47,014 bases of DNA from Candidatus Aegiribacteria sp. MLS_C (lineage in GTDB: Bacteria > Fermentibacterota > Fermentibacteria > Fermentibacterales > JCC-6): the NCBI GenBank assembly GCA_002030045.1, contig LQBI01000011.1:1-47014 (forward strand). The letters run 5' to 3'. The notes under the pieces are model-generated. The model was not told where the DNA came from and did not search any database. It was given only the letters and a program-made list of their open reading frames with translations. Positions 9,398-29,065 of the stretch are shown one piece after another (position 1 is the first letter of the stretch; each line of letters opens with the position of its first letter). A program made the translations under genes and the position numbers.

Positions 9398-9697
9398 TTG
9401 TACAAGCACAAAAGTCATCAGTTGGAATTCGTTGAATTCAAAAGCCCTTTCGGAGAACATCTCAGGGCTGACAATCGCTGGGTGAGACTGTCGGAAGTCA
9501 TTCCCTGGGCGCTCATCGAAGAGAAGTACAGGGAGAGTTTGAGCAGCCCTACCCGAGGACAGAAGGCCTGTTCATCCCGTGTGGCTTTCGGTGCCATGAA
9601 CATCAAGGAACAGATAGGTCTCACAGATGAGGATACGGTTCTTCGCATACAGGAGAACCCGTACCTTCAGTACTTCCTCGGGTTCCCCGAGTATCGG
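9398..9697 (+). mobile_element. N-terminal remnant of an IS5-family transposase
   Basis: Translation from TTG 9398 (GGAGAG just upstream) gives YKHKSHQLEFVEF, then FGEHLRADNRWVRLSEVIPW and NPYLQYFLGF. This is the DUF772-type N-terminal domain of IS5-like transposases. Similarity breaks off at about 9695, and the same frame then runs antisense through the 3' end of the AbiEii-1 toxin gene before a stop at 9797-9799. The catalytic DDE domain is missing. The stretch 9240-9380 just upstream is AT-rich and holds nothing I recognise apart from probable IS flank. Confidence 0.8.
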
Positions 9698-10628
9698 ATG
9701 GATCCTCACGGCCCGACCAGGGGCCGTCTTTGGGCCACTTTGCTGGAACCGAGGTGTTACCGGATGCCGCTTTCATGGGAAGCAGCAGGAATTCTCTGAG
9801 GCGCGAGAGCAGTTCCAGGAATCCAGGCGCATCTTCGTCGAGGCCGCTCTTTCGAACGAATGCTGTCCACTGGACCAGTTTTACTTCATCGCGGCCGAAA
9901 TCATCGCTCAGGGCCAGCGGCGTTTTGATGGGGATGTCGGTTTTTCGTCTCTTGAAAGTCGCCTTCATTGCACGGACAAGTGTATTGCCATCGAAAGAGA
10001 AGTCGCGGGCCAGCACGTACAGGTCATAGAAATCCTTCATCCGACTATTGGCAATGCCCAACATGACCATGGCATGGAACTTCTCGGCGACAACCGTTTC
10101 CCGTGGGCATGCCCGAATGCTCGGGGCGGGAAAATCCAAGAGCGTGGGATAACGGGTCTTCTTTGCCCTGGGCGTGACGACGTCGCCGAATCCTACGTCG
10201 ACCTGTACGGAAATGCGGGTCTTGCCAAGGAAGGCGGTTAGCGTAACGCGCTGTCCCTGGTATTCCTGTCCCTCGCGGATGGGCACAGCCGCCACGGTGT
10301 CGGCATCAAAGACAAGACCATCGGGCTCAACGCCTACACCGCAGACCTTGCGGAATACTTCCGCGAGTCGTTCGCTGGAATCGTCACCATAGCCGAGGAA
10401 GTCCATATCCAACGTTGGCCTGTAGGTTTTGCCCGTCCAAACCATGAACAGCATGGCACCCTTGAGTATGAACTCTCCCGCATACTCCGAAACGGAAAGG
10501 CGATAGAGAAGACGTTCCGTAGCGTAGCGCGTCCATACGAAATTCGGATCGTCTCCGGTATTACGGATGATGTTCAGAAGTCGCTGACGAACGGATGCCG
10601 CGATGTTCGACGGGGTGTGCCTGGTCAT
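9621..10628 (-). CDS. AbiEii/AbiGii-type nucleotidyltransferase toxin (pair 1)
   Basis: Cytoplasmic toxin of a type IV (AbiE-like) toxin-antitoxin system, predicted to be a DNA polymerase beta-like nucleotidyltransferase. The ATG at 10626-10628 overlaps the antitoxin stop (ATGA); a start 81 nt upstream is also open but lies inside the antitoxin gene. Seen: KGAMLF near residue 55, TLDMDFLG (metal Asp pair), RVTLTAFLGKTRISVQVDVG, VAEKFHAMV and RMKDFYDLYVL, the usual order of AbiEii blocks. It belongs to a different subfamily from the toxins of pairs 2-4, which carry GGT and RFSEDLDF. The family tail ends near KWPKDGPW at about 9717; the last 31 residues come from the antisense strand of the IS5 remnant. 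The native C-terminal end therefore appears replaced, and activity is uncertain. Confidence 0.88.
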   Translation of the reverse strand: MTRHTPSNIAASVRQRLLNIIRNTGDDPNFVWTRYATERLLYRLSVSEYAGEFILKGAMLFMVWTGKTYRPTLDMDFLGYGDDSSERLAEVFRKVCGVGVEPDGLVFDADTVAAVPIREGQEYQGQRVTLTAFLGKTRISVQVDVGFGDVVTPRAKKTRYPTLLDFPAPSIRACPRETVVAEKFHAMVMLGIANSRMKDFYDLYVLARDFSFDGNTLVRAMKATFKRRKTDIPIKTPLALSDDFGRDEVKLVQWTAFVRKSGLDEDAPGFLELLSRLREFLLLPMKAASGNTSVPAKWPKDGPWSGREDPSDTRGTRGSTEGTGSPVCEEPYPHL

Positions 10629-11233
10629 ACGGTCGCTTCCATATACGGGCGCATGGTTTTCGTTACCCGACAAACCTTCGCGTACTTCCAAAGCTCGTCG
10701 GTTGAGCACTTGCGGCCATGCAGAACGTCACGCAGTGCCTCGAGCGCAACATCAATCCCGATCTTATTCCGGTACTTGAAGCAATCCGCGATGGTCTTAG
10801 CCGGGCTGTAGATTTTCACCTGAACACCTTCGATGGTGTGTTCTTCAACGCCTTCGGTAAGTGCTTTGCCTGAGAAACGAACGATCCGTGTTTTCGGATG
10901 AGTGATTCGCGGGCGTGCCGCTCTTCTGTCAAGGGCCATCCAGACTTCGTGGGGAGCCTGCGTCCCTATCTCGTGAAAACGAAGGGAAGAGAGCAGGCAT
11001 ATCACTCCCTTGGGAGCGGTCTTTGCCACCTGCACCAGACCGTGATGAACCGTTATATCGGCATTCGGTAGGCTATAGAGTCCGTGACCCACTCGCACGA
11101 GTTCTCCTTTGGCGCACAGCTGCCTCAGGTACTCATGGTGAATACCGTGAGAACGCACCTCTGCGGTACTCACAACGCCCGATTGGCGAGCAAGCTCCAG
11201 TATCCTCTCTTTCTTTCCACCACGGTTCTTCAT
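10625..11233 (-). CDS. AbiEi-type antitoxin / transcriptional repressor (pair 1)
   Basis: Antitoxin of the AbiE family: an N-terminal winged helix (residues 5-55, AEVRSHGIHHEYLRQLCAKG then RVGHGLYSLP) that represses its own promoter, and a C-terminal domain (about 70-195) that counters the toxin. The KIYSPAKTIADCFKYRNKIG block is typical of the family. An ATG also exists at 11251, but it lies inside the palindromic operator and upstream of the -10 box, so it cannot be on the transcript. I therefore start at the ATG at 11233 (MKNRGGKKER), which falls about at +1. Neither ATG has a Shine-Dalgarno sequence, which supports leaderless translation. The stop overlaps the toxin start by 4 nt. Confidence 0.9.
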   Translation of the reverse strand: MKNRGGKKERILELARQSGVVSTAEVRSHGIHHEYLRQLCAKGELVRVGHGLYSLPNADITVHHGLVQVAKTAPKGVICLLSSLRFHEIGTQAPHEVWMALDRRAARPRITHPKTRIVRFSGKALTEGVEEHTIEGVQVKIYSPAKTIADCFKYRNKIGIDVALEALRDVLHGRKCSTDELWKYAKVCRVTKTMRPYMEATV

Positions 11234-12058: not shown

Positions 12059-12850
12059 TCATGTTGCGATATCAGCTTCCACCCAGTTACGAAGTATTTC
12101 AGGGAACAGCTTCACCTTCTGAACTTCCTTCCGGTCCGGGAGGAAAGGCGCCAGATCGGATGCCAGGCGTTGGATGTCGCGTTGGGACAGCTTTCTGTTG
12201 ATTCTATTTGCCAGTTCCCGCCTGTTATCCGTGCCCTGCTTCTGAAGAAGGTATCGCATGTCCGGTTCGGTTCTGCCGAAAAGGTAGACCGAGTCGTACA
12301 GATCCCTGGCCATTACTCTGCTCCTCTCCAGGATCGCATTCAGCTTCTGCGCCAGGACAAGGCTGTCCGGAGCGACCGGAATGGTAGCGGTTATGTCGAA
12401 ACGATTGAGTATTCTTATCTCCGGGCTGTAGCTGTAGTTCTGCGATCCCGCGTCTATCTTAAGTCTCAGTACCTCATCCCCGCGGGCGGTGAGTTCCCAT
12501 TCCTGAAGTATTCCCGTGAATCTGACCGTTCCCATGAACGCGCCGGGCCTCTTTGCCGAAACTTCGCACTCCACACCCTCCAGCTCGAATTCCTTCCCGA
12601 CGGTGTCCATCAGTTCCGTGAACCGCTGAAAGGAAACATCGATGGAATCGAAATCGAGATCCTCTGAAAACCTTCTGGTGCCGTAGAAAATCCGAAGAGC
12701 AGTACCGCCAATGGAAACAAGACCCTTCGAGAGGACCGAGCCATAGATGTATCCCAGGATTTTACACTGAAGGTATTCGGTGAGCATTGCTCTCCTGAAA
12801 CCCTTCGGAATACCGGAAAACGCCGAATATACAAGTTCAGGATCCAGCAT
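12059..12850 (-). CDS. AbiEii-type nucleotidyltransferase toxin (pair 2)
   Basis: 263-aa toxin of the DUF1814 nucleotidyltransferase family. Seen: GGTALRIFYG followed by RRFSEDLDFDS (metal-binding DxD), EWELTARGDEVLRLKIDAG, then APDSLVLAQKLNAIL and RVMARDLYDSVYLF, the conserved Lys and RDxYD blocks. All expected catalytic positions look intact. ATG at 12850 has GGAGG 9 nt upstream, inside the antitoxin gene; the TTG two codons earlier would be too close to it. The gene overlaps the antitoxin by 14 nt, so translation is coupled. Confidence 0.92.
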   Translation of the reverse strand: MLDPELVYSAFSGIPKGFRRAMLTEYLQCKILGYIYGSVLSKGLVSIGGTALRIFYGTRRFSEDLDFDSIDVSFQRFTELMDTVGKEFELEGVECEVSAKRPGAFMGTVRFTGILQEWELTARGDEVLRLKIDAGSQNYSYSPEIRILNRFDITATIPVAPDSLVLAQKLNAILERSRVMARDLYDSVYLFGRTEPDMRYLLQKQGTDNRRELANRINRKLSQRDIQRLASDLAPFLPDRKEVQKVKLFPEILRNWVEADIAT

Positions 12851-13457
12851 GTTCAACTACCTCCAGCAGCATGTGACACCTCTTCAGCAGCATTCTGTTC
12901 TGGAATCTCCCGGCAGTTTCCAGAAGGTCACCGGTTATGGGTCCCAGTCGTTCTCCGTTCAGTCTCAGTTCGATGAAATCCCCCGGCGTCCTCAGATCCT
13001 GCCTTAGGTAGAGCAGGTCGATTATCGCCCTTTCCGGCCGCGCGATCATGAACTTTCCGCGTTGTGTTTCCTCAATGCTATAGCCGAACCAGTAGCCGGG
13101 CTTCACCGTTCTGTAGATGAATTCGCCGATCTCGGAGGAAATCGTCCTTGTCTTCCTGGTGGTTACCGAGGTTACCGCGAGCGGGGTTTCCGGAATGAGT
13201 CCATACCATGCCAGTGCCGATTCCAGCGATACAAAAGAAGGGGTGTACAACCTTGAGGCAATTGCGAAAAGGTCCTGTTCTGTTTCGATGGAACCGGCAA
13301 GTACATAGAATCCAGGCGCAACCATGTTTATGTATCCGCTCTTTCTCCACCTGTAGATTGTCTCTCTGCGCAGACCGGGCAGGGCGGTTTCAAGGTCGGC
13401 AAGAGAAACTACCGGCAGTTTCTCCGCAAGCCTTCTGAACTCCTGAAAACGAGCCAT
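12837..13457 (-). CDS. AbiEi-type antitoxin / repressor (pair 2)
   Basis: 206-aa AbiEi-like antitoxin. N-terminal winged helix about 10-60 (LADLETALPGLRRETIYRWR, then GFYVLAG), middle SLESALAWYGLIPE, then VTTRKTRTI and the ERAIIDLLYLR block, which is the family's conserved core. Same architecture as the antitoxins of pairs 3 and 4 but clearly diverged from them. A promoter lies about 30 nt upstream of the ATG. The leader has no strong Shine-Dalgarno sequence, only GGAAA. Confidence 0.92.
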   Translation of the reverse strand: MARFQEFRRLAEKLPVVSLADLETALPGLRRETIYRWRKSGYINMVAPGFYVLAGSIETEQDLFAIASRLYTPSFVSLESALAWYGLIPETPLAVTSVTTRKTRTISSEIGEFIYRTVKPGYWFGYSIEETQRGKFMIARPERAIIDLLYLRQDLRTPGDFIELRLNGERLGPITGDLLETAGRFQNRMLLKRCHMLLEVVEHAGS

Positions 13458-15849: not shown

Positions 15850-15875
15850 TCTGAATGTTGATAGCCACATTCAGA
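15850..15875. repeat. Perfect 9-bp inverted repeat upstream of the mntA-like gene
   Basis: TCTGAATGT (15850-15858) and ACATTCAGA (15867-15875) are perfect complements around 8 bases. The phrase CATTCAGATACTG of the right arm also occurs at 15789-15801, so the motif is partly duplicated. It could be a terminator remnant of the upstream gene (no U-run seen) or a distal operator for the gene at 15930. Confidence 0.6.
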
Positions 15876-15893
15876 TACTGGATCATGATGATA

Positions 15894-15936
15894 TTTACTT
15901 ATCCCTTAAAGGGAACAATAATTCCCAATATGGGAA
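15894..15936 (+). promoter_or_regulatory. Promoter with two palindromic operators 21 bp apart (mntA-like gene)
   Basis: TTTACT (15894-15899), 17-bp spacer, AATAAT (15917-15922, 5 of 6), then 7 nt to ATG 15930. Two palindromes with GGGA arms overlap it: TCCCTTAAAGGGA (15902-15914) inside the spacer, and TTCCCAATATGGGAA (15922-15936) over the start codon. Their centres (15908 and 15929) are 21 bp apart, two helical turns, as expected for cooperative dimer binding. The encoded protein has a winged-helix domain and is a natural candidate ligand. Confidence 0.75.
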
Positions 15937-16532
15937 AGATACTGATACAGGAATCTGCGGGAGCGCTGTTCGGCAAGGTCAGGAGGAGGCTGCTCACTCT
16001 TCTTCTGCTTGACCCTGACGAGTCGTTCAATTTCCGGGAGATAAGGGACAAGGTGGAGTCCGGCTCGGGAGCGGTTCACCGTGAAATCGCTAATCTGGTT
16101 GAAGCGGGTATACTTACGCGGCGTGAGATGGGCAATCAGACCAGGTATCAGGCGAACAGGGATTCTGCCATCTTCAGCGAACTCCGTTCACTGTTCCTGA
16201 AGACCTCCGGTGTTCCTGAATTGTTACGTAAGGCTCTGAAGCCGATTAATGGAAGAACAAGCCTTGCTTTCATATTCGGAAGCTATGCTGAAGGAACGTT
16301 GGGTACCGGAAGTGATATTGATCTGATGGTTGTTGGTGATGTGGGTTTCAGTGAAGTAGCTGTAGCACTTCAGGCGGTCCAGAACGAGATAGGCAGAGAG
16401 ATCAATCCTGCGGTCTATTCTCCTGCATCCCTGAAGGAGAGGAAGGAAACCGGGTTCATCATGGGGGTACTCCAGGGAGAGAAGATATTCCTGAAGGGAG
16501 GGATGGATGAGCTTGAAGAAATGGTTGGATAA
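15930..16532 (+). CDS. HTH-fused MntA-like nucleotidyltransferase antitoxin
   Basis: 200-aa protein. Residues about 10-80 form a winged helix (SFNFREIRDKVESGSGAVHR, then GNQTRYQANR). Residues about 105-195 are a minimal nucleotidyltransferase with GSYAEG (117-122) and SDIDLMVVG (metal Asps 129 and 131), all intact. In MNT/HEPN systems the nucleotidyltransferase AMPylates and silences the HEPN RNase; here the next gene is a HEPN-like protein. The start at 15930 is chosen because the promoter and operators lie directly before it; an ATG 75 nt upstream has no support. There is no Shine-Dalgarno sequence, consistent with a leaderless mRNA. The 3' end overlaps the HEPN gene by 26 nt. Confidence 0.88.
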   Translation: MGKILIQESAGALFGKVRRRLLTLLLLDPDESFNFREIRDKVESGSGAVHREIANLVEAGILTRREMGNQTRYQANRDSAIFSELRSLFLKTSGVPELLRKALKPINGRTSLAFIFGSYAEGTLGTGSDIDLMVVGDVGFSEVAVALQAVQNEIGREINPAVYSPASLKERKETGFIMGVLQGEKIFLKGGMDELEEMVG

Positions 16533-17723: not shown

Positions 17724-17855
17724 ATGGAAGTAGATGAGATACTGGATGCACTTAGGTACTATAGAGGCAGTTACCCAAGGGAAGCCATGGATGATGAGGT
17801 AAACCTCACGGGGCGATGGGCGTGCTTCAATGAAGACGGCCCCTGGTTGCCTTAA
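17724..17855 (+). pseudogene. N-terminal fragment of a DUF1186 protein
   Basis: ATG 17724 with GGAGGAG upstream. MEVDEILDALRYYRGSYPRE is the canonical start of DUF1186 proteins and parallels the DUF1186 block in the 14181 gene. After MDDEV the similarity stops and the frame ends 18 codons later, where sequence belonging to the GHKL ATPase locus begins. The insertion of that locus appears to have cut this gene. The 250 bases before it (17470-17723) hold nothing I recognise. Confidence 0.7.
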
Positions 17856-17892
17856 GGACGGAACGGAAGGAAAGGGAGACCCGGGCAGGACC

Positions 17893-20094
17893 ATGAGTGG
17901 AGTCCTGAGGAAACAGCTGGAAGTCGATAGGAGGACGCTGCGGCAGAACGCCTCCCTGGCCATTCGGGATGTGTACGACGCGATCGTTGAACTGGTGACC
18001 AATGCCGATGACAGGTACCAGGTACTCGAATGCTCCGGGCGGATCGAGATCGAGGTGGACAGGCGCAAGGGGGAACCGAGCCTGCTCAGGGTAAGGGATT
18101 TCGCCGACGGCATGACGGCGGAGGTCATGGACAGGAAGCTTTCGAGAATGGGCGGCAGGGTAAGCGGCCTGGAGAGCGGGAAGTCGGTCCGTGGCACGAA
18201 TTCGAGAGGGGCCAAGGATGTGGCCGCGCTTGGTCTCGTGCGTTTCGAGTCGATAGCTGGCGACGGTTTCTACCACCGTTGCGAGATCGATCCACAGTTC
18301 GAGTTTTCCCTCTGGGAGTCGGTGAAGGCCGGAGCGAAGCACCGCAAGGCTATGGGGATAGCCAGGGGAACCGGCACTCTCGTGACTCTGGAAGTGGAGA
18401 GGAAGAACCGCATCCCATGGCACGATACCATGGTGAAGCATCTCGGCAGGCTCGTTCCCCTGAGGGACATCCTGCTGGATCCTTCAAGGGAGGTCGTCCT
18501 GAGAGATACCGGCAAGAACCGGAAGGACGTGATAGAGCCTCCCCACGTAGAGGGAGTGGACAGAGTAAAGATATCGTTCCCTGTCCCCGGTTATTCTGAG
18601 GCGAAGGCCAAGCTCGTTGTTCGCCGGGCGAAAAAGCGTTTCGAGAGGGAGGCGCCGAAGTTCAGGCTGGGGGGGATACTCATCCAGTCCAGGCATGCGA
18701 TCCATGAAGCAACACTTTTCGATCCCGCGTTCGAGAACGATCCCAACGCGCTCTGGTTCTTCGGCAAGCTCAGGTGCGAGTACATAGACGAACTGTGGAA
18801 CCAGTACGACGAACTCTACGCGAAGGGTATCGAGCACGATGAGGACAATCCGTGCCCCGTGATCGATCCTTCGCGCAGGACCGGCCTGACCAGGGAACAC
18901 CCCTTCGTGCAGGCGCTGTTCGACCAGGTCCTGAACCGGCTGAGGCCTCTGGTGGAGGAGGAGAGAAGGAGGGAGGAGAGACGCAGGACCCAGGTCGAGA
19001 GCGAGGAGACGAGAAAGAGGCTGGACGCTCTGGAAAAGGCGGCGACGGATTTCATGATGGAGTTCGCCGAGGAGGAGGAACCCTCCAGGGACCCGGACAG
19101 CAGGAAAGCCGAAAGCAAGTTCGTGGAGAACGGTTTCATACTCTACCCGCCATTCGCGCAGATTGTCGTGGGCGACAGTCAGAAGTTCTGGTTCAACGTG
19201 AACCAGAAAGCCTTTCCCGAGATAGGCGAGGGTACTTCTATCGAGATCAACTGCGTCACTCCGGATCTCGTCTCCGAGAAGACCGCCTGTGAACTCTCCG
19301 GGCATCCCAGGCAGGATGACGTCGTCAGGGCGGTTTGGAGCGTCAAAGCTCAGAATGTAATAGATGCCACCGGACTTGAAGTGCGGGTAGGCCCGATATA
19401 CGCTTCCAGTGTTGTTGAAGTGCTGGCCAGCGAGGCGGAAAGATACAGGGACATAGATTCCCTGCGGTTCCAGAAGAAGCAGTACAGAATGAGGACCGAT
19501 ACCGGAAGGAAGAGGATACGGCTCTTCGCGCCCATGGAACTGGTTCAGGACAATGCGAGTGTCGAACTGGACATAACGGGGAATTCCTTCGAGGTACGGG
19601 GACAGCACATTTTCAGGCATGAATCGGAACTGGGGATCGCTGTCTGCAAGATCTCCATCGTATCCGACGGTACCGAGGCATCCGAGACCATAACCGCGAG
19701 AGCGGGCGGTCAGACCGCATCCGCTGAACTGGTGAGCTACCAGCCCCTGGGCGCGGGGCTGGAGATACGCATAGAGGATTCGGACATGGGGGATTTCCGT
19801 TACAGGTGGAAGCAGAACGTGCTGGAGATAGCGGCAGGCCACCCGTCGCTGAGGCGGTATCTGGGGTCGAAGAAGGACAACTATCCCGGCCAGGACGAGA
19901 AGCACTTCAGGCTCCTGATAGCCGAGATAGTGGCCGAGGCAGTGTGTTCCCAGATAGTCTCCAGGAATGTGGAGATGAACCCGGGAGCATACGTCAGCGC
20001 CGGATGGGACGTCCTCTATTCCGAGTACTCACATCTCATGACCAGATTCCTGCCTGTCACCCACAAGCTGCAGTGTCCCTCCGGCGAGCTGTGA
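17893..20094 (+). CDS. GHKL-family (HSP90/MutL/MORC-like) ATPase of unknown role
   Basis: 733-aa soluble ATPase. Bergerat-fold motifs are clear: N-box AIVELVTNADDRY with general-base Glu 33 and Mg-binding Asn 37; G1 box RDFADGM (68-74); and a lid with RGTNSRGAKDVAALG (100-114). An S5-like transducer region probably follows (about 130-270), then a charged coiled coil about 355-405 (EEERRREERRRTQVESEETR), then beta-rich C-terminal domains without signal peptide or TM. Bacterial stand-alone proteins of this type include the MORC-like ATPases linked to restriction and defence clusters. No nuclease domain is recognisable. An in-frame ATG at 17830 overlaps the DUF1186 fragment; I prefer 17893 (GGCAGGA upstream). 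It is followed 90 nt later by the AbiE-3 operon on the same strand. Confidence 0.8.
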   Translation: MSGVLRKQLEVDRRTLRQNASLAIRDVYDAIVELVTNADDRYQVLECSGRIEIEVDRRKGEPSLLRVRDFADGMTAEVMDRKLSRMGGRVSGLESGKSVRGTNSRGAKDVAALGLVRFESIAGDGFYHRCEIDPQFEFSLWESVKAGAKHRKAMGIARGTGTLVTLEVERKNRIPWHDTMVKHLGRLVPLRDILLDPSREVVLRDTGKNRKDVIEPPHVEGVDRVKISFPVPGYSEAKAKLVVRRAKKRFEREAPKFRLGGILIQSRHAIHEATLFDPAFENDPNALWFFGKLRCEYIDELWNQYDELYAKGIEHDEDNPCPVIDPSRRTGLTREHPFVQALFDQVLNRLRPLVEEERRREERRRTQVESEETRKRLDALEKAATDFMMEFAEEEEPSRDPDSRKAESKFVENGFILYPPFAQIVVGDSQKFWFNVNQKAFPEIGEGTSIEINCVTPDLVSEKTACELSGHPRQDDVVRAVWSVKAQNVIDATGLEVRVGPIYASSVVEVLASEAERYRDIDSLRFQKKQYRMRTDTGRKRIRLFAPMELVQDNASVELDITGNSFEVRGQHIFRHESELGIAVCKISIVSDGTEASETITARAGGQTASAELVSYQPLGAGLEIRIEDSDMGDFRYRWKQNVLEIAAGHPSLRRYLGSKKDNYPGQDEKHFRLLIAEIVAEAVCSQIVSRNVEMNPGAYVSAGWDVLYSEYSHLMTRFLPVTHKLQCPSGEL

Positions 20095-20184: not shown

Positions 20185-20817
20185 ATGAAATTTGAAGAAC
20201 TGCTGCAGATCGTCAGGAATGAGCCGGTCTTCTCCACGGGTATCCTGCTGGCGGGGGATACCACAGCGGAGAATGCCAGGGCTCGGCTCTCCAGGTGGGT
20301 GAGGGAAGGCAGGGTCATCAGCCTCAGGAGGGGCTGCTATGCGCTTGCCGAACCTTATGCGGATACTCCTCCCCATCCATTCCTGGTGGCCAACGCCATG
20401 GAGCTGGGGTCGTATGTCAGCTGCCAGACTGCCCTGGCATGGCATGGGCTGGTTCCGGAGACGATCGGGGCTGTGACTTCCATTACACCGGGCAGGCCTT
20501 CCGTAGTAAGGAACGAACTGGGCACCTTCATTTACCGTCACATGCGGCGGGAACTCCTTGCAGGCTACAGGAGAGAGACCCTGCCTGGAGGCAGGAAGGC
20601 AAGGGTAGCTTCGCCAGAAAAGGCTCTGCTGGACCTTATTTACCTGGAGCCGGGAGGGTACTCCCCGGAATACCTGGAGGAGCTGAGGCTCCAGAACACC
20701 GATATTCTATCCCAGGAATCTCTGGAGGAACTGGTGGAGATGTGGGACAGGCCAAGGATGAGAAGGGCACTGGAGAATCTGCGCCCTTATCTGTCGGGAA
20801 GCAGGAGGAAAACATGA
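20185..20817 (+). CDS. AbiEi-type antitoxin / repressor (pair 3)
   Basis: 210-aa AbiEi-like antitoxin: winged helix about 25-60 (RARLSRWVREGRVISLRRGC, then YALAE), then SCQTALAWHGLVPETIGAV, SITPGRP and ASPEKALLDLIYLE, in the family order. An ATG at 20167 is also in frame but lies upstream of the -10 box, so 20185 (MKFEELLQ) is preferred. The stop overlaps the toxin ATG (ATGA), and AGGAGG just before that overlap is inside this gene. It follows the GHKL ATPase on the same strand. Confidence 0.92.
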   Translation: MKFEELLQIVRNEPVFSTGILLAGDTTAENARARLSRWVREGRVISLRRGCYALAEPYADTPPHPFLVANAMELGSYVSCQTALAWHGLVPETIGAVTSITPGRPSVVRNELGTFIYRHMRRELLAGYRRETLPGGRKARVASPEKALLDLIYLEPGGYSPEYLEELRLQNTDILSQESLEELVEMWDRPRMRRALENLRPYLSGSRRKT

Positions 20818-21632
20818 AGGAGGAACTCAGGAGCATCGTCGAGGCGGCTCCTTCGGTTCTTGCCGGTATGAACCTGACCCGCGAGTACCTGCAGTCCCGG
20901 ATCCTGCTACTGATGCAGGAAGCAGGGGCCATGATCCCCCTGGCCTTCTGCGGGGGGACCGCTCTGAGATTCCTGTACGGGCTTCCCCGGTTCTCGGAGG
21001 ACCTGGATTTCTCCATGGAAAAGCGCATGGAGGAAGACGGACTTCGGTCAATTGTCGACAGGGTTGAGAGGGGGCTTTCCCGCCAGGGATACGATGTGCA
21101 CGTGATTAGCAGGAATGTATCGGCGGTGGAGAGCCATCTCATCAGGTTTCCCGGGCTACCCTACGAGCTGGGTCTTGCAGCCAGACAGTCGCAGATAATG
21201 TCAATCAAGATCGAGGTGGACACCGATCCTCCGGAGGGGGCGGTACTGGAGTTAAGCATAGTCCGCAGGTTCGCCGTCATGCGGCTGCAGCACCATGACA
21301 GGGCATCCCTTCTTGCCGGCAAGCTCCACGCGGTGCTCTCGAGAAGCTACCCCAAGGGCAGGGATTACTACGACCTTCTATGGTACCTGACCTCGGAAGG
21401 CTGGCCGGGTCCCAACATGAGCATGCTCCGGAACGCACTTCGCCAGACCGGCTGGAGCGGCGGGGAGCTGGATTCGATGGACCTGCGAGCAATGCTCGAG
21501 GAGAAGTTCCTCTCGGTTGACTGGACGGCGGTCCGAAGAGATATCGAACCCTTCCTCGAGCATCCTTCCGAGGCGGAATACCTGAACGGGAAGGACATGA
21601 CGGGGCTGCTTGCGGATTCCGGCTTGTTCTAG
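20814..21632 (+). CDS. AbiEii-type nucleotidyltransferase toxin (pair 3)
   Basis: 272-aa nucleotidyltransferase toxin. Seen: FCGGTALRFLYGLPRFSEDL then DFS (metal Asp pair), MSIKIEVDTDPPEG, SLLAGKLHAVLSRSYPKGRD and YYDLLWYL, so all blocks of the family are complete. ATG 20814 has a perfect AGGAGG 6-7 nt upstream and overlaps the antitoxin stop by 4 nt. The frame is open far upstream in the antitoxin gene, but only the part from 20814 has family similarity. A hairpin repeat lies 60 nt downstream. Confidence 0.94.
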   Translation: MKEELRSIVEAAPSVLAGMNLTREYLQSRILLLMQEAGAMIPLAFCGGTALRFLYGLPRFSEDLDFSMEKRMEEDGLRSIVDRVERGLSRQGYDVHVISRNVSAVESHLIRFPGLPYELGLAARQSQIMSIKIEVDTDPPEGAVLELSIVRRFAVMRLQHHDRASLLAGKLHAVLSRSYPKGRDYYDLLWYLTSEGWPGPNMSMLRNALRQTGWSGGELDSMDLRAMLEEKFLSVDWTAVRRDIEPFLEHPSEAEYLNGKDMTGLLADSGLF

Positions 21633-21843: not shown

Positions 21844-23289
21844 ATGAAAGCATACAGGCACTTCATCATCGGAGTTACCGGCCGCATCGAACTCAACGAA
21901 CTGACTCGCAGGATGGCGGAGCGGCATCCCGGGATATCCGCGGAGGATTCCGCCCTGCAGGACGCAATTCCGTGCAGGGTGTTCAGTCCCGTATCCGGGG
22001 GCACGCTTACTGTCGCTGGCACTGAGATCGATTTCCGCATGGACCTTTACGTTATGCATCACGGGGTGTTCATGTTCGAGGTGGCCATGGAGGCGGAACA
22101 GCTGCCGGAGATGGTCACCGGCGGGAACTTCATGCTGGAGCAGGTGGGCATATCCGCCGGAGGGGTTCATTCCGAGAACCCTCTCATGATGCACGGCTGG
22201 ATGTTCCTGTTCAACCTGCTGGATTTCGAGGAGGTCATTTCCAGGCTGGGGGAGGTGGGCTCATTCAGGGAGGAGAGCCAGAGGGAGACCCACGACGCCA
22301 TTCTGGAGACGGCTCTGATAGATTCCTGCTACCTGGGTGACCAGAACTACCTGCAAACCCGGAGGGGCGTGAGCGAGTCGGTCCTTCTGGTGGGTGGTGC
22401 CGGAGAACTGGAACCGCCGGAGGATGCTGTAGAGGTGTACCGGGGCGGGTCGGTGGTTCGCATGATCGACAATGTCTTCTCCGCTCCGGAGGAGGATGAG
22501 GGATTCCTGGACCTGATGAGGTTCCTGCTCTACCGCGAGAACGTCATTGGTGTCTTCAACAAGACGATGTCCGACTGGCTCTCGTCCGTGAGCGAGCAGT
22601 CCAGGTACATCAGGGACAACATAGGGGAGACCAACAAGGTCTACTGGAGCAGGCTGAAGAGAAGGCTCGAGGTCTGGGACCTGAACTTCCTCGATACGTT
22701 CGCCTCGGCCAATGCAGTTATCAACTCCCTGGAGAGCGTGGAACCGGCGGGTCTGCAGCCGCCGTATTCGGAGACGGTCCGAGAAGAATACGAAAGGAGC
22801 AGGAAACTCCTGCTCCGCAACATGGATTCGCTTAAGTACTCCATCTCCAACCTGAGGACTCCCTGCGAGGCCCACGATGAGGATCTGCTGCAGAAGGAGA
22901 CCGAGAAAGTCAACGAGCGAATAATGCTCCTCTCGTTCCTGGCCATGTCCATACCGCTCCTGGGGGCCGTCCTGGCGCCGGGGATAGCAACCTCCACGAA
23001 ACTGGTGGCTGCAGCGGTCCTGTTCACACTTCCGGCCGCCTACGCCTACTTCAGGAGACTGCAGAAGAAGAAGGGCCACAGGAAGGCGACGGCAAGCTAC
23101 CTCCTGAACCAGAAGAGGAAACTGGAGGAGGAGATAGAAAACAGCAGGAAGACCCTGGACGGCATCATCAACCAGGAGGAACTCGATGAGAAGACCAGGT
23201 CCCAGGCGGTCGAGTTCGTAAGGAAGACACTTGCAGCTTCGGAAAAATACCTCGGTGAGCTGGAACGGGAGATCGAGAAATACGACTGA
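21844..23289 (+). CDS. Unknown protein with two TM helices and C-terminal coiled coils
   Basis: 481 aa, family not recognised. Residues 1-215 form a globular alpha/beta part (MKAYRHFIIGVTGRIELNEL). Residues 215-335 are mostly helical. Residues about 338-358 are a charged helix, 359-380 and 385-404 are two TM helices separated by a short polar turn, and 405-481 form a long charged coiled coil (KRKLEEEIENSRKTLDGI). The termini should therefore both be cytoplasmic. ATG 21844 follows a GGAGGGG at good spacing. It reads in the same direction as the GHKL ATPase and AbiE-3, 210 nt after the toxin, and could be an effector or sensor in that cluster. That is inference from position only. Confidence 0.8.
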   Translation: MKAYRHFIIGVTGRIELNELTRRMAERHPGISAEDSALQDAIPCRVFSPVSGGTLTVAGTEIDFRMDLYVMHHGVFMFEVAMEAEQLPEMVTGGNFMLEQVGISAGGVHSENPLMMHGWMFLFNLLDFEEVISRLGEVGSFREESQRETHDAILETALIDSCYLGDQNYLQTRRGVSESVLLVGGAGELEPPEDAVEVYRGGSVVRMIDNVFSAPEEDEGFLDLMRFLLYRENVIGVFNKTMSDWLSSVSEQSRYIRDNIGETNKVYWSRLKRRLEVWDLNFLDTFASANAVINSLESVEPAGLQPPYSETVREEYERSRKLLLRNMDSLKYSISNLRTPCEAHDEDLLQKETEKVNERIMLLSFLAMSIPLLGAVLAPGIATSTKLVAAAVLFTLPAAYAYFRRLQKKKGHRKATASYLLNQKRKLEEEIENSRKTLDGIINQEELDEKTRSQAVEFVRKTLAASEKYLGELEREIEKYD

Positions 23290-23561: not shown

Positions 23562-26500
23562 CTATGCTTCTCCAGTGGTATCCCAGTGAGCCGGCAGGGG
23601 TACATCCTCCGCCGCGCAGACCGAGGCGACAAGCCTGTCATGGAGTTCCGCGAGACCTTTCAGTGAATCTCTGTCAAGTTTCAGGTCCGATGCGATGGTG
23701 AGTGCCTCGGTATAGCATTCAAGAGCTTTGCCCGTATCAACATCAATGCTGATAAGCAGACATCCGAGGTTGGCCAGCACGTTGGCGACTTCCTTCAGGT
23801 TCTTTGTCTCCCTGTCCACTTCGAGCGCCATCTCGTAATGACTGTGCGCCGTGTCATAGCGTTCCAGCTTCATATATGCGTTGCCAAGGTTACCCAGTAT
23901 TATCCCTTCACTGATCCTGTTCCCGACCTCGCGATGTATTTTCAGGGCTTGCAGGTAGTTTTCGACAGCTTCGTCAGTTGATCCCTTTTCGGCGTAGAGG
24001 ACACCGAGATTGCCAAGAATGCTACCCTCTATGAAGCGGTCGCCTATCTCCCTGATAGCTTCCAGGCTCCTTCTGAAGTGATTGAATGATTCGTCGAAGC
24101 GACCCTGCGACATGCGCAGAATACCGAGATTTACCTCGATAATACCGGTGGAACGCCGATTTCCGATCTCCCGCTGTCTGACAAGGGATTTTTCGTAGTA
24201 CTCCCCCGCTTCATCCAGGTCGCCCCTGGACCACAGGAGTGAACCCAGATTGTTATGCACATCTGCGATGGACCGTCTATCACCAACTCTGCGAGCTATC
24301 TCCAGGGCCTGTTCGTAGTACGACCGCGCCTCGTCAAAGAGCCCCCTCGTCTTGAAAAGGATACCGAGATTCCCGAGAATGACGCCCTCTGACCGGAGGT
24401 CACCCGCTTCTTGGTGTATTTCCAGCGCTTTTGTGTAAAAGTCCTCGGCTTCGTCCATTCGACCCTGGTTCGTGCTCAGCGCTCCGAGATTGCCCAGGAC
24501 TATTCCCTCGAAGGCCCGGTTCCCCGCTTTCCTTGCAAGCTCCAGTGCTCTTTTCCAGCTGGTTCCGGCCTCTTCCACAGCGCCTGTGACCCTTTCCAGA
24601 TTGCCCCGCTTCTTGAGTGCGACGGCCATCCTGTAATCTGAGCCGGTCCTTTCCGCCAGATCGATCATCCTCCGGACAGTGTTCTTCTGCTCAGTCCGGT
24701 CGCCCAGTATGTCCAGTACCTGTTCCCGGCCGGAGAGGAGCTTGAACAGATTCTCATCCAGCTGCCTGTCGTCCTTTTGTCTGTTCAGCAGCTCCTCCAG
24801 ACTGTAGGAGAGCTTCAGGGCCTCTTCGCCCATGTAGTTCTCCATGGCCCTGAACCCCCACATGATCGCTTTGTGGTCCAGTTCGGCCTTCTGGTAGTGA
24901 TGCATGAGTATTCCAGATATTCGATCGGTCTCGTTCGGAAGCAGTTCCTCTATGGACTCCGCGGCCACTTTATGCAGAAGCTTCAGGTTGATCTCGTGTA
25001 TGCTGGAGTAGGCCGTGTCATGAATCAGGACATGCCTGAAGGCGTATGACCTCTCGATGGGACTGCCGGTCTGCAGGAGCATCTTCCTCTCCTCCAGGCC
25101 TTCGAATACCTCATCCTTCGCCCTTCCGAGGAACAGCTTCTCCGCCAGCTTGTGGTAGAGCCTGAGCTGGAACTCCATTCCCAGGACGGAAGAGTGCTGG
25201 AGGACGTTTCTCCATGATTCCGGCAGTCTGTCCAGCCTGGACTGCAGCAGCCCCGTGATAGTGTCCGGGACGAAGATCTCTCCGATCGGTGTGGCGAACC
25301 TCCATTCCTGTTCCAGCTCGGTCAGTGAACCTGATTCAACCAGGTCCAGCACCAGCTCCTGCAGGTAGAACGGGTTGCCGCCGGAACGGTTCAGAAGGAA
25401 TTCGACGACATCCGATGCGACCATTCTTGAACCTCGGTCGCTGATACCTGAAAGGAGTTTCCTGACTAGTTCAGTGGAGGCTTCCTGGTCTACTTCCGTC
25501 AATTCCATCCGATCGAAGCTGGAGTGGTTTCCCAGGCTCTCGAACTCAACTGCTGAGCCGTCCTCTCGCTCGGGTCTTGCTATCAGCACGAATAGTACTG
25601 GAAACTCGGTATCCAGATTGTCCAGGATGAACTCGAGTACCCCGAGGTCACTGTCGTCCATCCACTGCAGGTCATCGAGGATCACCAGGAGTATTTTCCC
25701 GTCGGCAAGTACCTCGATGAGTCCGCGGAAGGCGATCCTGGTTTCGAGTTCTATCGCCTTCCTGTCCAGTTCCGCCATCCTTCTGTCACCTGATGGTATC
25801 GATAGCAGTTCGGCGAGGAAGGGAGCGGAATCATCCAGGATTCCATCCTCATCGTAGTCTTCAAGCCTGTCGAGGAATCCACGGTAATCGATCCTGCTGC
25901 CGTGTTCTATGTCCAGTGCGTGCCTCAGAAGTGTTGTCCACAGCCAGAAAGGAGGCTGGGCGAATGACAGTGTCTGTCCCCGCAGGACGATCTCGTCACC
26001 GGAACGGTTCTGCTCGATGAACTCGTGCACCAGTCGGGATTTACCTATTCCGGCATCGCCGCTGATGCACATCACCAGGTGACTCGCTGACGAAGGATCA
26101 TGTCTGTGTGAACTGCACCTCTGTCTTTCCAGCAGAGATGTCAGTCTCTCGAGTTCCTTTTCCCTGCCCACGAATGGTGACTGTATTCTCAGGATCCTGG
26201 CACCCGGAACCGCGCTATGGCGCCGGGCTAGGCGGTAAACTCCTTCAGAATGGGATTTCCAGGTATACTCATCCCTTAGTGCATTACGGACCGTTTCCGT
26301 TGCCAGAAGAGAACCGGAAGCGATTCCAGACAATTCAGCTGCTTGCTCGAGCACCTCTCCGCGGGGTTCGACGCGCTCTTCCGCCGAGGGATCAACATCG
26401 ATCATACCCGACGCTGCTCCCAGGCCGAACGCCAGGTTCATCTCCCTGCCGCCCAGGGTCGAGTCGATACTAGACAGCGCCTTCAGGAGCGAGATCCCGC

Positions 26501-27242
26501 AGTCCAGTGCCCGTTTCCCGTGATCCTCCTGCGCATGAACAAGTCCGAAGACACACCTGTAGGAGTTATGGGACTTTCCTCCGGAAGCCCCTCCGAAGTG
26601 GTCCAGATAGCGCTCGATGATGGTATTCAGAGAGCGTGCGACGGTTGCTCTCACCGCGGAGGGGATATCCTCGCCTCTCAGCTCCGCGTTGACGCTGAGG
26701 ACCGTGACCATTCTCCGTTCATCGTTGAGCATGATCCTTGATCCTTCTCCGGCATCATAGTCCAGCGCAGAGGAAATGGCTGCCAGGTCATTCTCCAGCA
26801 GTTCCGAGAGTTCTCTTTCACAGGGTGCGCCAGTGCTCAAGGAGAGTTCCTTCCTCAGTGGGTCCAGGAGCTCGGATAGCCTCCTGTCGAGGGGAACGTC
26901 TGTGGCATCTCGCCATTGATGCGGGGATATGTAGTACTGCATCCACTTGGATAGCTCGATCTCCTCGATAACGACCGGGAAGATTCCTATGCCGTTGTTT
27001 ACAGCTCTCTCGACTTCTCTTCTGACCTGAGGTGACCTGTTGGAATGCCTGGAAAGCAGAAGCACCATGCAGGAGGACGAGTCGATCCCGTCGATGATGG
27101 ATTCTGCCCAATCGGCAGCGGGGGGGATGTCCCTGGGGGCTATCCAGCATCCGATGCCCCTGGACTCGAAGAATGAAACGACATGGTCCGCGGTTTTCCT
27201 GTCCTGTGATGCGTAGGATATGAACAGCTGAGTTCTCTTCAT
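23562..27242 (-). CDS. TIR / cyclase-like / STAND NTPase / TPR protein
   Basis: 1226-aa NLR-like multidomain protein. Residues 4-135 are a TIR (TIR_2) domain (LFISYASQDRKTADHVVSFF, CWIAPRDIPPAADWAESI, with Glu in SPQVRREVERA). Residues 172-340 resemble a class III nucleotide cyclase, but the metal Asps are lost (VTVLSVNAELRG where LFADIxG is usual), so this part is probably a dead sensor or scaffold. The STAND NTPase starts near 355 (FVGREKELERL) with Walker A GDAGIGKS (395-402) and Walker B ILLVILDDLQW (517-527). From about 870 there are eight TPR units with NLG recurring exactly every 40 residues (918, 958, 998, 1038, 1078, 1118, 1158). Known relatives sense a ligand through the repeats, oligomerise and activate the TIR (NAD hydrolysis or signalling) in antiphage defence. 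TIR enzymatic activity here is unproven. Confidence 0.9.
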   Translation of the reverse strand: MKRTQLFISYASQDRKTADHVVSFFESRGIGCWIAPRDIPPAADWAESIIDGIDSSSCMVLLLSRHSNRSPQVRREVERAVNNGIGIFPVVIEEIELSKWMQYYISPHQWRDATDVPLDRRLSELLDPLRKELSLSTGAPCERELSELLENDLAAISSALDYDAGEGSRIMLNDERRMVTVLSVNAELRGEDIPSAVRATVARSLNTIIERYLDHFGGASGGKSHNSYRCVFGLVHAQEDHGKRALDCGISLLKALSSIDSTLGGREMNLAFGLGAASGMIDVDPSAEERVEPRGEVLEQAAELSGIASGSLLATETVRNALRDEYTWKSHSEGVYRLARRHSAVPGARILRIQSPFVGREKELERLTSLLERQRCSSHRHDPSSASHLVMCISGDAGIGKSRLVHEFIEQNRSGDEIVLRGQTLSFAQPPFWLWTTLLRHALDIEHGSRIDYRGFLDRLEDYDEDGILDDSAPFLAELLSIPSGDRRMAELDRKAIELETRIAFRGLIEVLADGKILLVILDDLQWMDDSDLGVLEFILDNLDTEFPVLFVLIARPEREDGSAVEFESLGNHSSFDRMELTEVDQEASTELVRKLLSGISDRGSRMVASDVVEFLLNRSGGNPFYLQELVLDLVESGSLTELEQEWRFATPIGEIFVPDTITGLLQSRLDRLPESWRNVLQHSSVLGMEFQLRLYHKLAEKLFLGRAKDEVFEGLEERKMLLQTGSPIERSYAFRHVLIHDTAYSSIHEINLKLLHKVAAESIEELLPNETDRISGILMHHYQKAELDHKAIMWGFRAMENYMGEEALKLSYSLEELLNRQKDDRQLDENLFKLLSGREQVLDILGDRTEQKNTVRRMIDLAERTGSDYRMAVALKKRGNLERVTGAVEEAGTSWKRALELARKAGNRAFEGIVLGNLGALSTNQGRMDEAEDFYTKALEIHQEAGDLRSEGVILGNLGILFKTRGLFDEARSYYEQALEIARRVGDRRSIADVHNNLGSLLWSRGDLDEAGEYYEKSLVRQREIGNRRSTGIIEVNLGILRMSQGRFDESFNHFRRSLEAIREIGDRFIEGSILGNLGVLYAEKGSTDEAVENYLQALKIHREVGNRISEGIILGNLGNAYMKLERYDTAHSHYEMALEVDRETKNLKEVANVLANLGCLLISIDVDTGKALECYTEALTIASDLKLDRDSLKGLAELHDRLVASVCAAEDVPLPAHWDTTGEA

Positions 27243-27587: not shown

Positions 27588-28415
27588 TCAGAACGCCTTG
27601 TCGATGAAGTGCAGGAACATCTCGCTGCTCCAGTTCCGGACTGTTTCCCTCTCTTCTGCGCGCAGGAACGGGAGGACATCCCTGGCCGCCTGCTCGAGAT
27701 CGGTCTCCATGACCTTCTCCCGCAGTCTCTGAACCAGCCAATCCTCCGATTCCGGGACGGCCTGTCCGGCCCAGGGACCCGTCTGTTCCATCGAGCTGGA
27801 GAAAAGCCTGAGGTTGGGCCTGACATTCCTCGAACAGAACCACAGCAGGTCGAACCAGTCCCTGCCCTTCATCCAGTTGCGGCAGAGCAGAGCATGGCAC
27901 TTGAGAGCGAAAGAGGAGGGAAGGTCCATTACCGATACCTCATGCGGCACCGGAAAGTCCAGGAATCCGGTCTCGGCTGTTGCTCCAGATGGTGGGGAAG
28001 TGTCTATCTCGAGACGGATCCTGGTGTATCCCGGTCTGCCTGAAGAATCACTGACTGCCAAAGAGCTTTCGATGAGCATTATGGCTCTGATGGTGCCCTT
28101 TTCTCTGGGTTTCCGCCGGATCTCGAGTCTGATATCGTACCTGGAGAAGGTCGCCAGGAGTTTGTCCTCGTAAATCTTCCAGTCGAATCCTTCATCAGGT
28201 TCCCGAAGCAGGAAATCAAGGTCCTCGGAGAAACGCGGCAGCCCATGAAGCAGTCTGAGTTCCGTTCCGCCGTGAAAGAAAGCTTCCTTGAAGAAATCGT
28301 GGGCAGAAAGGGAATAGATAGCCATTTCCTGCAGGAGCTCCCTGAAACGCTGAATTCGGAATTCCGGGGTTCTTTCATCGAATCCGCTCAGTCTCTCCCC
28401 GATGATCCTGTTCAT
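27588..28415 (-). CDS. AbiEii-type nucleotidyltransferase toxin (pair 4)
   Basis: 275-aa toxin of the same subfamily as pairs 2 and 3. Seen: FFHGGTELRLLHGLPRFSED then LDFLL (metal Asp pair), YTRIRLEIDTSPPSG, SSFALKCHALLCRNWMKGRD and WFDLLWF. All family blocks are present. The ATG at 28413-28415 overlaps the antitoxin stop by 4 nt (ATGA), with GGAGG inside the antitoxin gene a few bases before it. The C-terminal half is longer than in pair 2, otherwise the layout is the same. Confidence 0.93.
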   Translation of the reverse strand: MNRIIGERLSGFDERTPEFRIQRFRELLQEMAIYSLSAHDFFKEAFFHGGTELRLLHGLPRFSEDLDFLLREPDEGFDWKIYEDKLLATFSRYDIRLEIRRKPREKGTIRAIMLIESSLAVSDSSGRPGYTRIRLEIDTSPPSGATAETGFLDFPVPHEVSVMDLPSSFALKCHALLCRNWMKGRDWFDLLWFCSRNVRPNLRLFSSSMEQTGPWAGQAVPESEDWLVQRLREKVMETDLEQAARDVLPFLRAEERETVRNWSSEMFLHFIDKAF

Positions 28416-29065
28416 TGCTCACCTCCAAGGGCTGACAGGAGTCTCCGTAACAACAGTCTCACTGACCTGCTCCTGTAGAACTCCTCGAGCTTTCCAAGCA
28501 GAGTGATATCCAGTTCCTCGAGAACACTCATGTCTATTCTCAGTTCATCGCATAACCCTGAAATCCCGCGCCATTCGGACTGCCTGAAGTAAAGGGTATC
28601 TCCCAGAGCCCTTTCAATTCCCGCGATCATGTAGACATTTTTTGAGATCTCATTTCTATTCACACCAAGATAGTAATCGCTTCCAAGAGCAGGGAGAGTC
28701 CTGTAGACGAATTCACCTATCGGATTTCCGTAGCTGCGGCTCCTGCCCGAAGGAATGCAGCTCTGGACTGCCACCGGAGCCTCCTGAAGCCATCCGTGAT
28801 AGCTTAGAGCTGTTTCCATGGAAATGTAACTTTCCGGGACAAGTCTGTTCGCAATGGAATAGACACTTACTGTTTGTCCGGTCAGAGCCGGGTCAAGCAG
28901 GTAGAGCCCTCTTTTCAGCTTGATAAGCTCTCCACTTTCCAGTGCTCTGTGGACAAGTCCCCATCTCCGTTGTCTGCTTCCAGCTACCAGATCCGAAACT
29001 GCCGACGTAGATACAACTCTTCCCGCCATTCCATTCTTGATGAGAATCTCTGTAAGTGTTTCCAT
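28412..29065 (-). CDS. AbiEi-type antitoxin / repressor (pair 4)
   Basis: 217-aa AbiEi-like antitoxin: winged helix about 15-60 (STSAVSDLVAGSRQRRWGLV, then KRGLYLLDP), SYISMETALSYHGWLQEAPV, CIPSGRSRSYGNPIGEFVY and the AGIERALGDTLYFRQ block. Unlike pairs 1 and 3, this gene has a 24-nt leader with a strong GGGAGG site, so it is translated conventionally. Its promoter lies just downstream of a hairpin repeat. Confidence 0.93.
   Translation of the reverse strand: METLTEILIKNGMAGRVVSTSAVSDLVAGSRQRRWGLVHRALESGELIKLKRGLYLLDPALTGQTVSVYSIANRLVPESYISMETALSYHGWLQEAPVAVQSCIPSGRSRSYGNPIGEFVYRTLPALGSDYYLGVNRNEISKNVYMIAGIERALGDTLYFRQSEWRGISGLCDELRIDMSVLEELDITLLGKLEEFYRSRSVRLLLRRLLSALGGEQ

Follow-up and report, generated by a model that had tools for sequence, protein, structure and literature searches.

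Within the window, that is, the whole analysed stretch of 47,014 nucleotides, we characterized a minus-strand gene (23562..27242) encoding a protein of 1226 aa. Its start is the ATG at 27242, with an AGG-containing stretch immediately 5' of it. Based on the open reading frame and on domain and structure matches, the protein consists of a TIR domain, a catalytically dead class III nucleotide-cyclase domain, a STAND NTPase and eight TPR units; all domain coordinates below are on the minus strand. The original prediction had placed the open reading frame exactly here and had read the same order of TIR, dead cyclase, seemingly live STAND NTPase and TPR sensor, which was borne out by Pfam, motifs and the predicted fold. 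Proteins of the TIR-STAND-TPR kind are already known, and the dead cyclase between TIR and NTPase represents a new variant of them.

The TIR domain (residues 1-125; 26868..27242) was confirmed at the N-terminus by Pfam TIR_2 (residues 7-115, E = 4.5e-21). Glu76 (codon 27015-27017) is the candidate NADase glutamate: it is invariant in 10 aligned TIR rows and in 11 aligned N-terminal rows, and aligns with a Glu at the equivalent place in the Cat1 TIR. This position is presumably that of the catalytic Glu of TIR NADases, and a TIR fold carrying such a residue makes the domain a putative TIR NADase. Many TIR domains, though, signal without NADase activity.

The STAND NTPase core, comprising AAA_16 and a winged-helix region, occupies residues 354-727 (25062..26183). 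Pfam AAA_16 matched residues 356-552 (E = 7e-19), and the invariant columns of the core are present (G395, G398, G400, K401, D524 and G622-N623-P624). Walker A (GDAGIGKS, residues 395-402; 26037..26060) and Walker B (LVILDD, residues 519-524; 25671..25688) are intact, as had been noted previously, and together with the GNP-type motif in an AAA_16/NOD core they identify a STAND NTPase. Residues 728-867 (24642..25061) form a helical arm-like region, assigned only by conservation and by its position, after the NTPase core and before the first TPR. The putative sensor follows at residues 868-1187 (23682..24641), where Pfam TPR models (TPR_12, E = 8e-53) and the sequence period reveal a C-terminal array of eight TPR units of exactly 40 residues each. 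The 40-residue NLG period reported earlier is exact over seven repeats (918, 958, 998, 1038, 1078, 1118 and 1158), and an eighth unit without NLG stands ahead of them at 868. Self-matches at lag 40 numbered 104, compared with 9-40 at the other lags in the range 30-49. We claim no domain arrangement from the structure model of the N-terminal part including the STAND core, because its pTM was low (0.47).

The gene lies in a region of lowered GC content (0.51-0.58 over about 5-29 kb, compared with 0.59-0.63 on the 30-47 kb side). An AbiEii/AbiEi pair on the same strand (27588..29065; AbiEii 27588-28415, AbiEi 28412-29065) is located upstream, 345 bp away; we regard it as context, not established as part of the system. 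Three further AbiEii genes are present in the window (9624-10709, 12062-12856 and 20295-21632), and at least two of the four have AbiEi partners. Thus, 4 of the 6 AbiEii genes of the genome are found in a 47-kb window that makes up 1.6% of it, a clustering that is not an unbiased test because the window was picked as interesting-looking. A PDC-M05A candidate was also detected (15855-16529).

Several other features of this island were observed. The four AbiEii genes (regions 9624-10709, 12062-13457, 20295-21632 and 27588-29065) belong to different subfamilies, and the one at 20295-21632 is extended at its N-terminus by about 200 residues, which may represent a fused antitoxin. Two open reading frames, 17830-20094 (754 aa) and 21844-23289 (481 aa), had no Pfam, NCBIfam or PADLOC match; the latter is arranged tail to tail with the TIR gene, and inspection by eye showed a hydrophobic hairpin and a possible coiled coil.

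A degenerate cyclase domain retained under selection

The region between TIR and NTPase (residues 166-346; 26205..26747) could not be assigned by Pfam, whose cyclase models gave no match on residues 140-352 even at E = 10. Its sequence matched the cyclase Cya2 weakly (phmmer, E = 0.0023). Structure prediction, suggested previously as a check, gave a class III cyclase fold (AlphaFold2, pLDDT 80) with strong Foldseek matches to class III cyclases, the best being 7yz9, the Rv1625c catalytic domain (E = 3e-11, TM 0.69-0.78); 6aob and 2w01 were also matched. Because Pfam is silent here, the identity of the domain as a cyclase rests on phmmer, structure and relatives.

The five positions that we take to be the catalytic set of class III cyclases are occupied in the window protein by N185 (metal Asp 1), G222 (Lys), N226 (metal Asp 2), E299 (Asn) and E303 (Arg), which agrees with the earlier remark that the metal Asps are missing. 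On the basis of this residue table we reject an active cyclase. Among the 12 proteins with TIR, metal Asp 1 and Asn were lost in all 12, Arg and Lys in 11 each and metal Asp 2 in 7. On the other hand, the full set was retained in 9 of the 10 aligned cyclase-STAND-TPR relatives that lack TIR, and the original prediction's view that a degenerate cyclase is usual in TPR-bearing regulatory STAND proteins could not be upheld. As judged from these alignments, cyclase degeneration goes with TIR presence. The tenth relative without TIR, encoded in the window genome itself (L036:1807-4962, contig C31), lacks both metal Asps and has the Lys, Asn and Arg; this half-dead cyclase is of the complementary type and could serve a partner domain.

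Selection on the dead domain was estimated from the four closest members. Its dN/dS was 0.10-0.20, compared with 0.17-0.22 for the STAND core of the same pairs, and never exceeded that of the STAND core within any pair. In the TIR group, mean identity was 0.40 for the cyclase region and 0.50 for STAND, and the order was reversed in the live-cyclase group (0.58 and 0.43, respectively), as would be expected if constraint had moved from catalysis to fold. The dN/dS values and the retained fold rule out mere debris. Considering the cyclase fold, the single clade (see below) and purifying selection, we regard the dead domain as a retained part of the protein.

Distribution and origin of the family

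We identified at least 11 further proteins with the order TIR-dead cyclase-STAND-TPR, which gives at least 12 distinct members including the window protein, all from Candidatus Fermentibacterota, a phylum that has received little study. Ten of these loci came from a scan of species genomes, in which 80 of 438 relatives were listed; they are titled Candidatus Sabulitectum, Fermentibacteraceae, Fermentibacterales or Fermentibacteria, and their architecture was checked. The eleventh, from genome G049, is cut at a contig end. At 68 other loci of the same scan, TIR occurred alone or with other partners, never with the cyclase or STAND of this family. The matches from outside Fermentibacterota among the 80 of 438 listed involved TIR and a short linker alone, in open reading frames without cyclase or STAND. 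It is therefore likely that the TIR-dead cyclase form is absent outside Fermentibacterota.

In 40 genomes close to that of the window, full-length matches including TIR were limited to a few genomes (G022, G024 and G020, the last with three), and many relatives matched from about residue 200 on, that is, as cyclase-STAND-TPR proteins without TIR. Within the genus, the TIR form was found in 1 of 19 genomes, the window's own, and most of the others contain a live-cyclase relative. No TIR-cyclase fusion was found in two further phyla (one of the two scans had no positive control), and viral contigs gave no match. Phage records yielded one match, to the TIR part only, and plasmids yielded three weak matches when the TIR part alone was the query. 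The cyclase-STAND-TPR chassis matched 643 plasmid records, with 80% or more of the query covered in 52, and is widespread on plasmids of soil bacteria. The original prediction had held that it would fail if the architecture proved to be a common signalling type; this description fits the chassis but not the TIR-dead cyclase version, which was found only in Fermentibacterota among the matches listed.

A recognized toxin-antitoxin or defence neighbour was present at 2 of the 12 loci only, the window and L017; at the latter, the TIR gene is immediately followed downstream, on its own strand, by an AbiEi/AbiEii pair, and that genome contains just two AbiEii genes. Neighbours at the other scanned loci, several of which are on short contigs, encode lyase, sulfatase-modifying, FG-GAP/beta-propeller, secreted or unknown proteins. 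An all-against-all comparison of neighbours revealed no conserved partner gene or operon partner. In PADLOC, no Avs or TIR-STAND model matched; the protein was hit only by generic TPR models and by the TIR part of a SAVED model. The defence link proposed earlier is indirect: the AbiE-rich island, the AbiE pair at L017 and the patchy occurrence speak for it, whereas the absence of defence neighbours at most other loci speaks against it. We consider a defence role plausible.

We also reconstructed phylogenetic trees for the cyclase and STAND domains. In the former, 11 dead domains were on one side of a branch with a support of 100/100. In the latter, the live-cyclase clade fell among the TIR forms, which needs two changes, and a single TIR clade was not rejected (AU p = 0.23). 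Support for a single origin comes mainly from the cyclase domain, in which active-site loss could pull rows together. One explanation is a single emergence of the TIR/dead-cyclase N-terminus followed by exchange of N-termini; the other is a weak STAND signal. More divergent TIR-STAND proteins of the phylum (L131 and L132), with little or no cyclase remaining, could not be placed in the tree because of their long branches.

Comparison with known proteins

The closest relatives by architecture are cyclase-STAND-TPR proteins, including L026 and L027 of the window genome, adenylate/guanylate cyclase domain proteins of Rhizobium and Sinorhizobium and mammalian ADCY10, in all of which a class III cyclase fold is followed directly by a STAND NTPase and helical repeats. 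Over cyclase-STAND, the window protein shares 35-44% identity with its nearest relatives in Fermentibacterota; cyclase-STAND-TPR proteins differ from it in lacking TIR and in keeping the metal Asps, Lys, Asn and Arg (9 of 10 aligned). ADCY10 itself has two cyclase domains followed by a predicted STAND/P-loop region (PMC12802110). Plant TIR-NLRs and bacterial TIR-bearing STAND or Avs-like proteins share the N-terminal TIR, the STAND switch and the C-terminal repeat sensor; in the window protein, however, a dead cyclase lies between TIR and NTPase and no PADLOC model covers the protein. MalT and PH0952 combine a STAND core with a TPR sensor and an expected ADP/ATP switch (PMC6468293), although MalT drives transcription, whereas the presumed output of the window protein is TIR.

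The TOMM kinase/cyclase fusion model TIGR03903 matched residues 352-944 (E = 5e-49), but the score of 167 bits is well below its cut-off of 705.75 bits, and TIGR03903 has no TIR. Catalytically inactive cyclases and TIRs are both described as modules of vWA-MoxR conflict systems (PMC7159879). The core machinery of those systems is MoxR and vWA, and the domain order of the window protein was not found among the passages considered. The earlier statement that a dead cyclase between TIR and NTPase had not been described agrees with our search, in which no published TIR-cyclase-STAND-TPR protein was found in the open-access literature; this is a weak negative, as subscription papers were outside its scope.

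Possible mechanism and alternatives

We lean, by a small degree, towards a stand-alone STAND switch with a TIR output, in which the dead cyclase is kept as a spacer and dimeriser; the likeliest setting would be abortive anti-phage defence. At rest, the ADP-bound NTPase core would be held closed by contacts with the TPRs and the arm, as reported for the TPR-STAND proteins PH0952 and MalT (PMC6468293). The TPRs would bind a ligand (a phage protein, perhaps, or a cue of cell damage), and the core might then exchange ADP for ATP and oligomerise. The dead cyclase domains, whose fold pairs as dimers when active, could draw the TIRs at the N-terminus close to one another; for TIRs on an NLR chimera, induced proximity is reported as sufficient for output (PMC7414095). 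The TIRs would then cleave NAD+, resulting in either depletion of the cell or an ADP-ribose-type signal. Output would thereby have passed from cyclase to TIR on a cyclase-STAND-TPR chassis, the old cyclase being retained as a spacer, dimeriser or coupling part.

A quite different, less probable but still serious reading is that the protein is one of the many STAND-TPR regulators of this lineage and has no part in defence, its TIR being an interaction adaptor or the maker of a housekeeping NAD-derived signal. The window genome indeed contains many STAND-TPR paralogues with other outputs, a neighbour at L020 is a GGDEF-AAA_16-TPR protein, most TIR-form loci lack defence neighbours and the chassis is common on soil-bacterial plasmids. 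What this reading explains poorly is the patchiness of the TIR form when the cyclase form occurs in most of the genus, the position of the window copy in an AbiE-rich low-GC island and the invariance of the candidate catalytic Glu76.

Two other readings concern the dead domain itself. In the first, which follows the nucleotide-sensing part suggested in the original prediction, it would have kept the ability to bind a nucleotide or cyclic nucleotide and would act as a gate on TIR, so that TPR input is integrated with nucleotide state. This seems rather unlikely to us: metal-, base- and phosphate-holding residues are lost or scattered across the family, which speaks against a classical pocket, and no alternative conserved pocket was identified, even though the cyclase fold is kept under purifying selection and inactive cyclases fused in other conflict systems are proposed to be nucleotide binders or dominant negatives (PMC7159879). 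A dominant-negative role, in which the domain would inhibit or titrate the live cyclase domains of paralogues by pairing with them, would have suitable targets in the same genome, namely intact cyclase-STAND-TPR paralogues and other proteins with two cyclase-like regions before the STAND domain. Class III cyclases act as dimers. Nevertheless, residues from each half of the composite site are missing from the dead domain, and several genera have genomes with the TIR form but no partner gene conserved among them; we judge this role very improbable.

Returning to the spacer-and-dimeriser reading, if it is right, a single lineage shows a second-messenger receptor turned into a TIR (NAD+-consuming) receptor, with live-cyclase relatives in the same genomes as controls. 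It would also provide a defined case of a dead enzyme domain kept as a mechanical part within a STAND receptor, and would offer a testable point on the way in which TIRs come together. More tentatively, one could propose that, in a second-messenger receptor of the cyclase-STAND-TPR type, the cyclase died a single time and TIR took over as output, that the dead cyclase now sets TIR-TIR geometry as an obligate clutch which dimerises or reads a nucleotide, and that a whole immune-type receptor family arose by such output replacement. If this were true, one genome would hold a natural before-and-after pair in which to study the change from signalling receptor to cell-suicide receptor.

Other TIR and STAND genes

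Some related genes with unusual arrangements were also noticed. In the window genome, two STAND-TPR proteins (L115:2098-6108 and L117:2231-5977) have two tandem cyclase-like regions and in this order resemble mammalian soluble adenylyl cyclase. L132:1301-6647 contains a convergent TIR-STAND pair: one gene encodes a TIR-STAND-TPR protein that has no cyclase region and whose TIR looks truncated, and the second a TIR-STAND protein of 739 aa that lacks TPRs but shows a trace of cyclase. At L046:3-4990, a second TPR protein of the family, of which the C-terminal part is visible at the contig start (385 aa), is encoded immediately ahead of the TIR gene, an arrangement that suggests tandem duplication. 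Finally, Candidatus Sabulitectum sp. RS_7_28 has five TIR genes in tandem (L062:114-12930), encoding proteins of 812-891 aa with slightly overlapping start and stop codons; the one copy scanned had no Pfam match beyond TIR.
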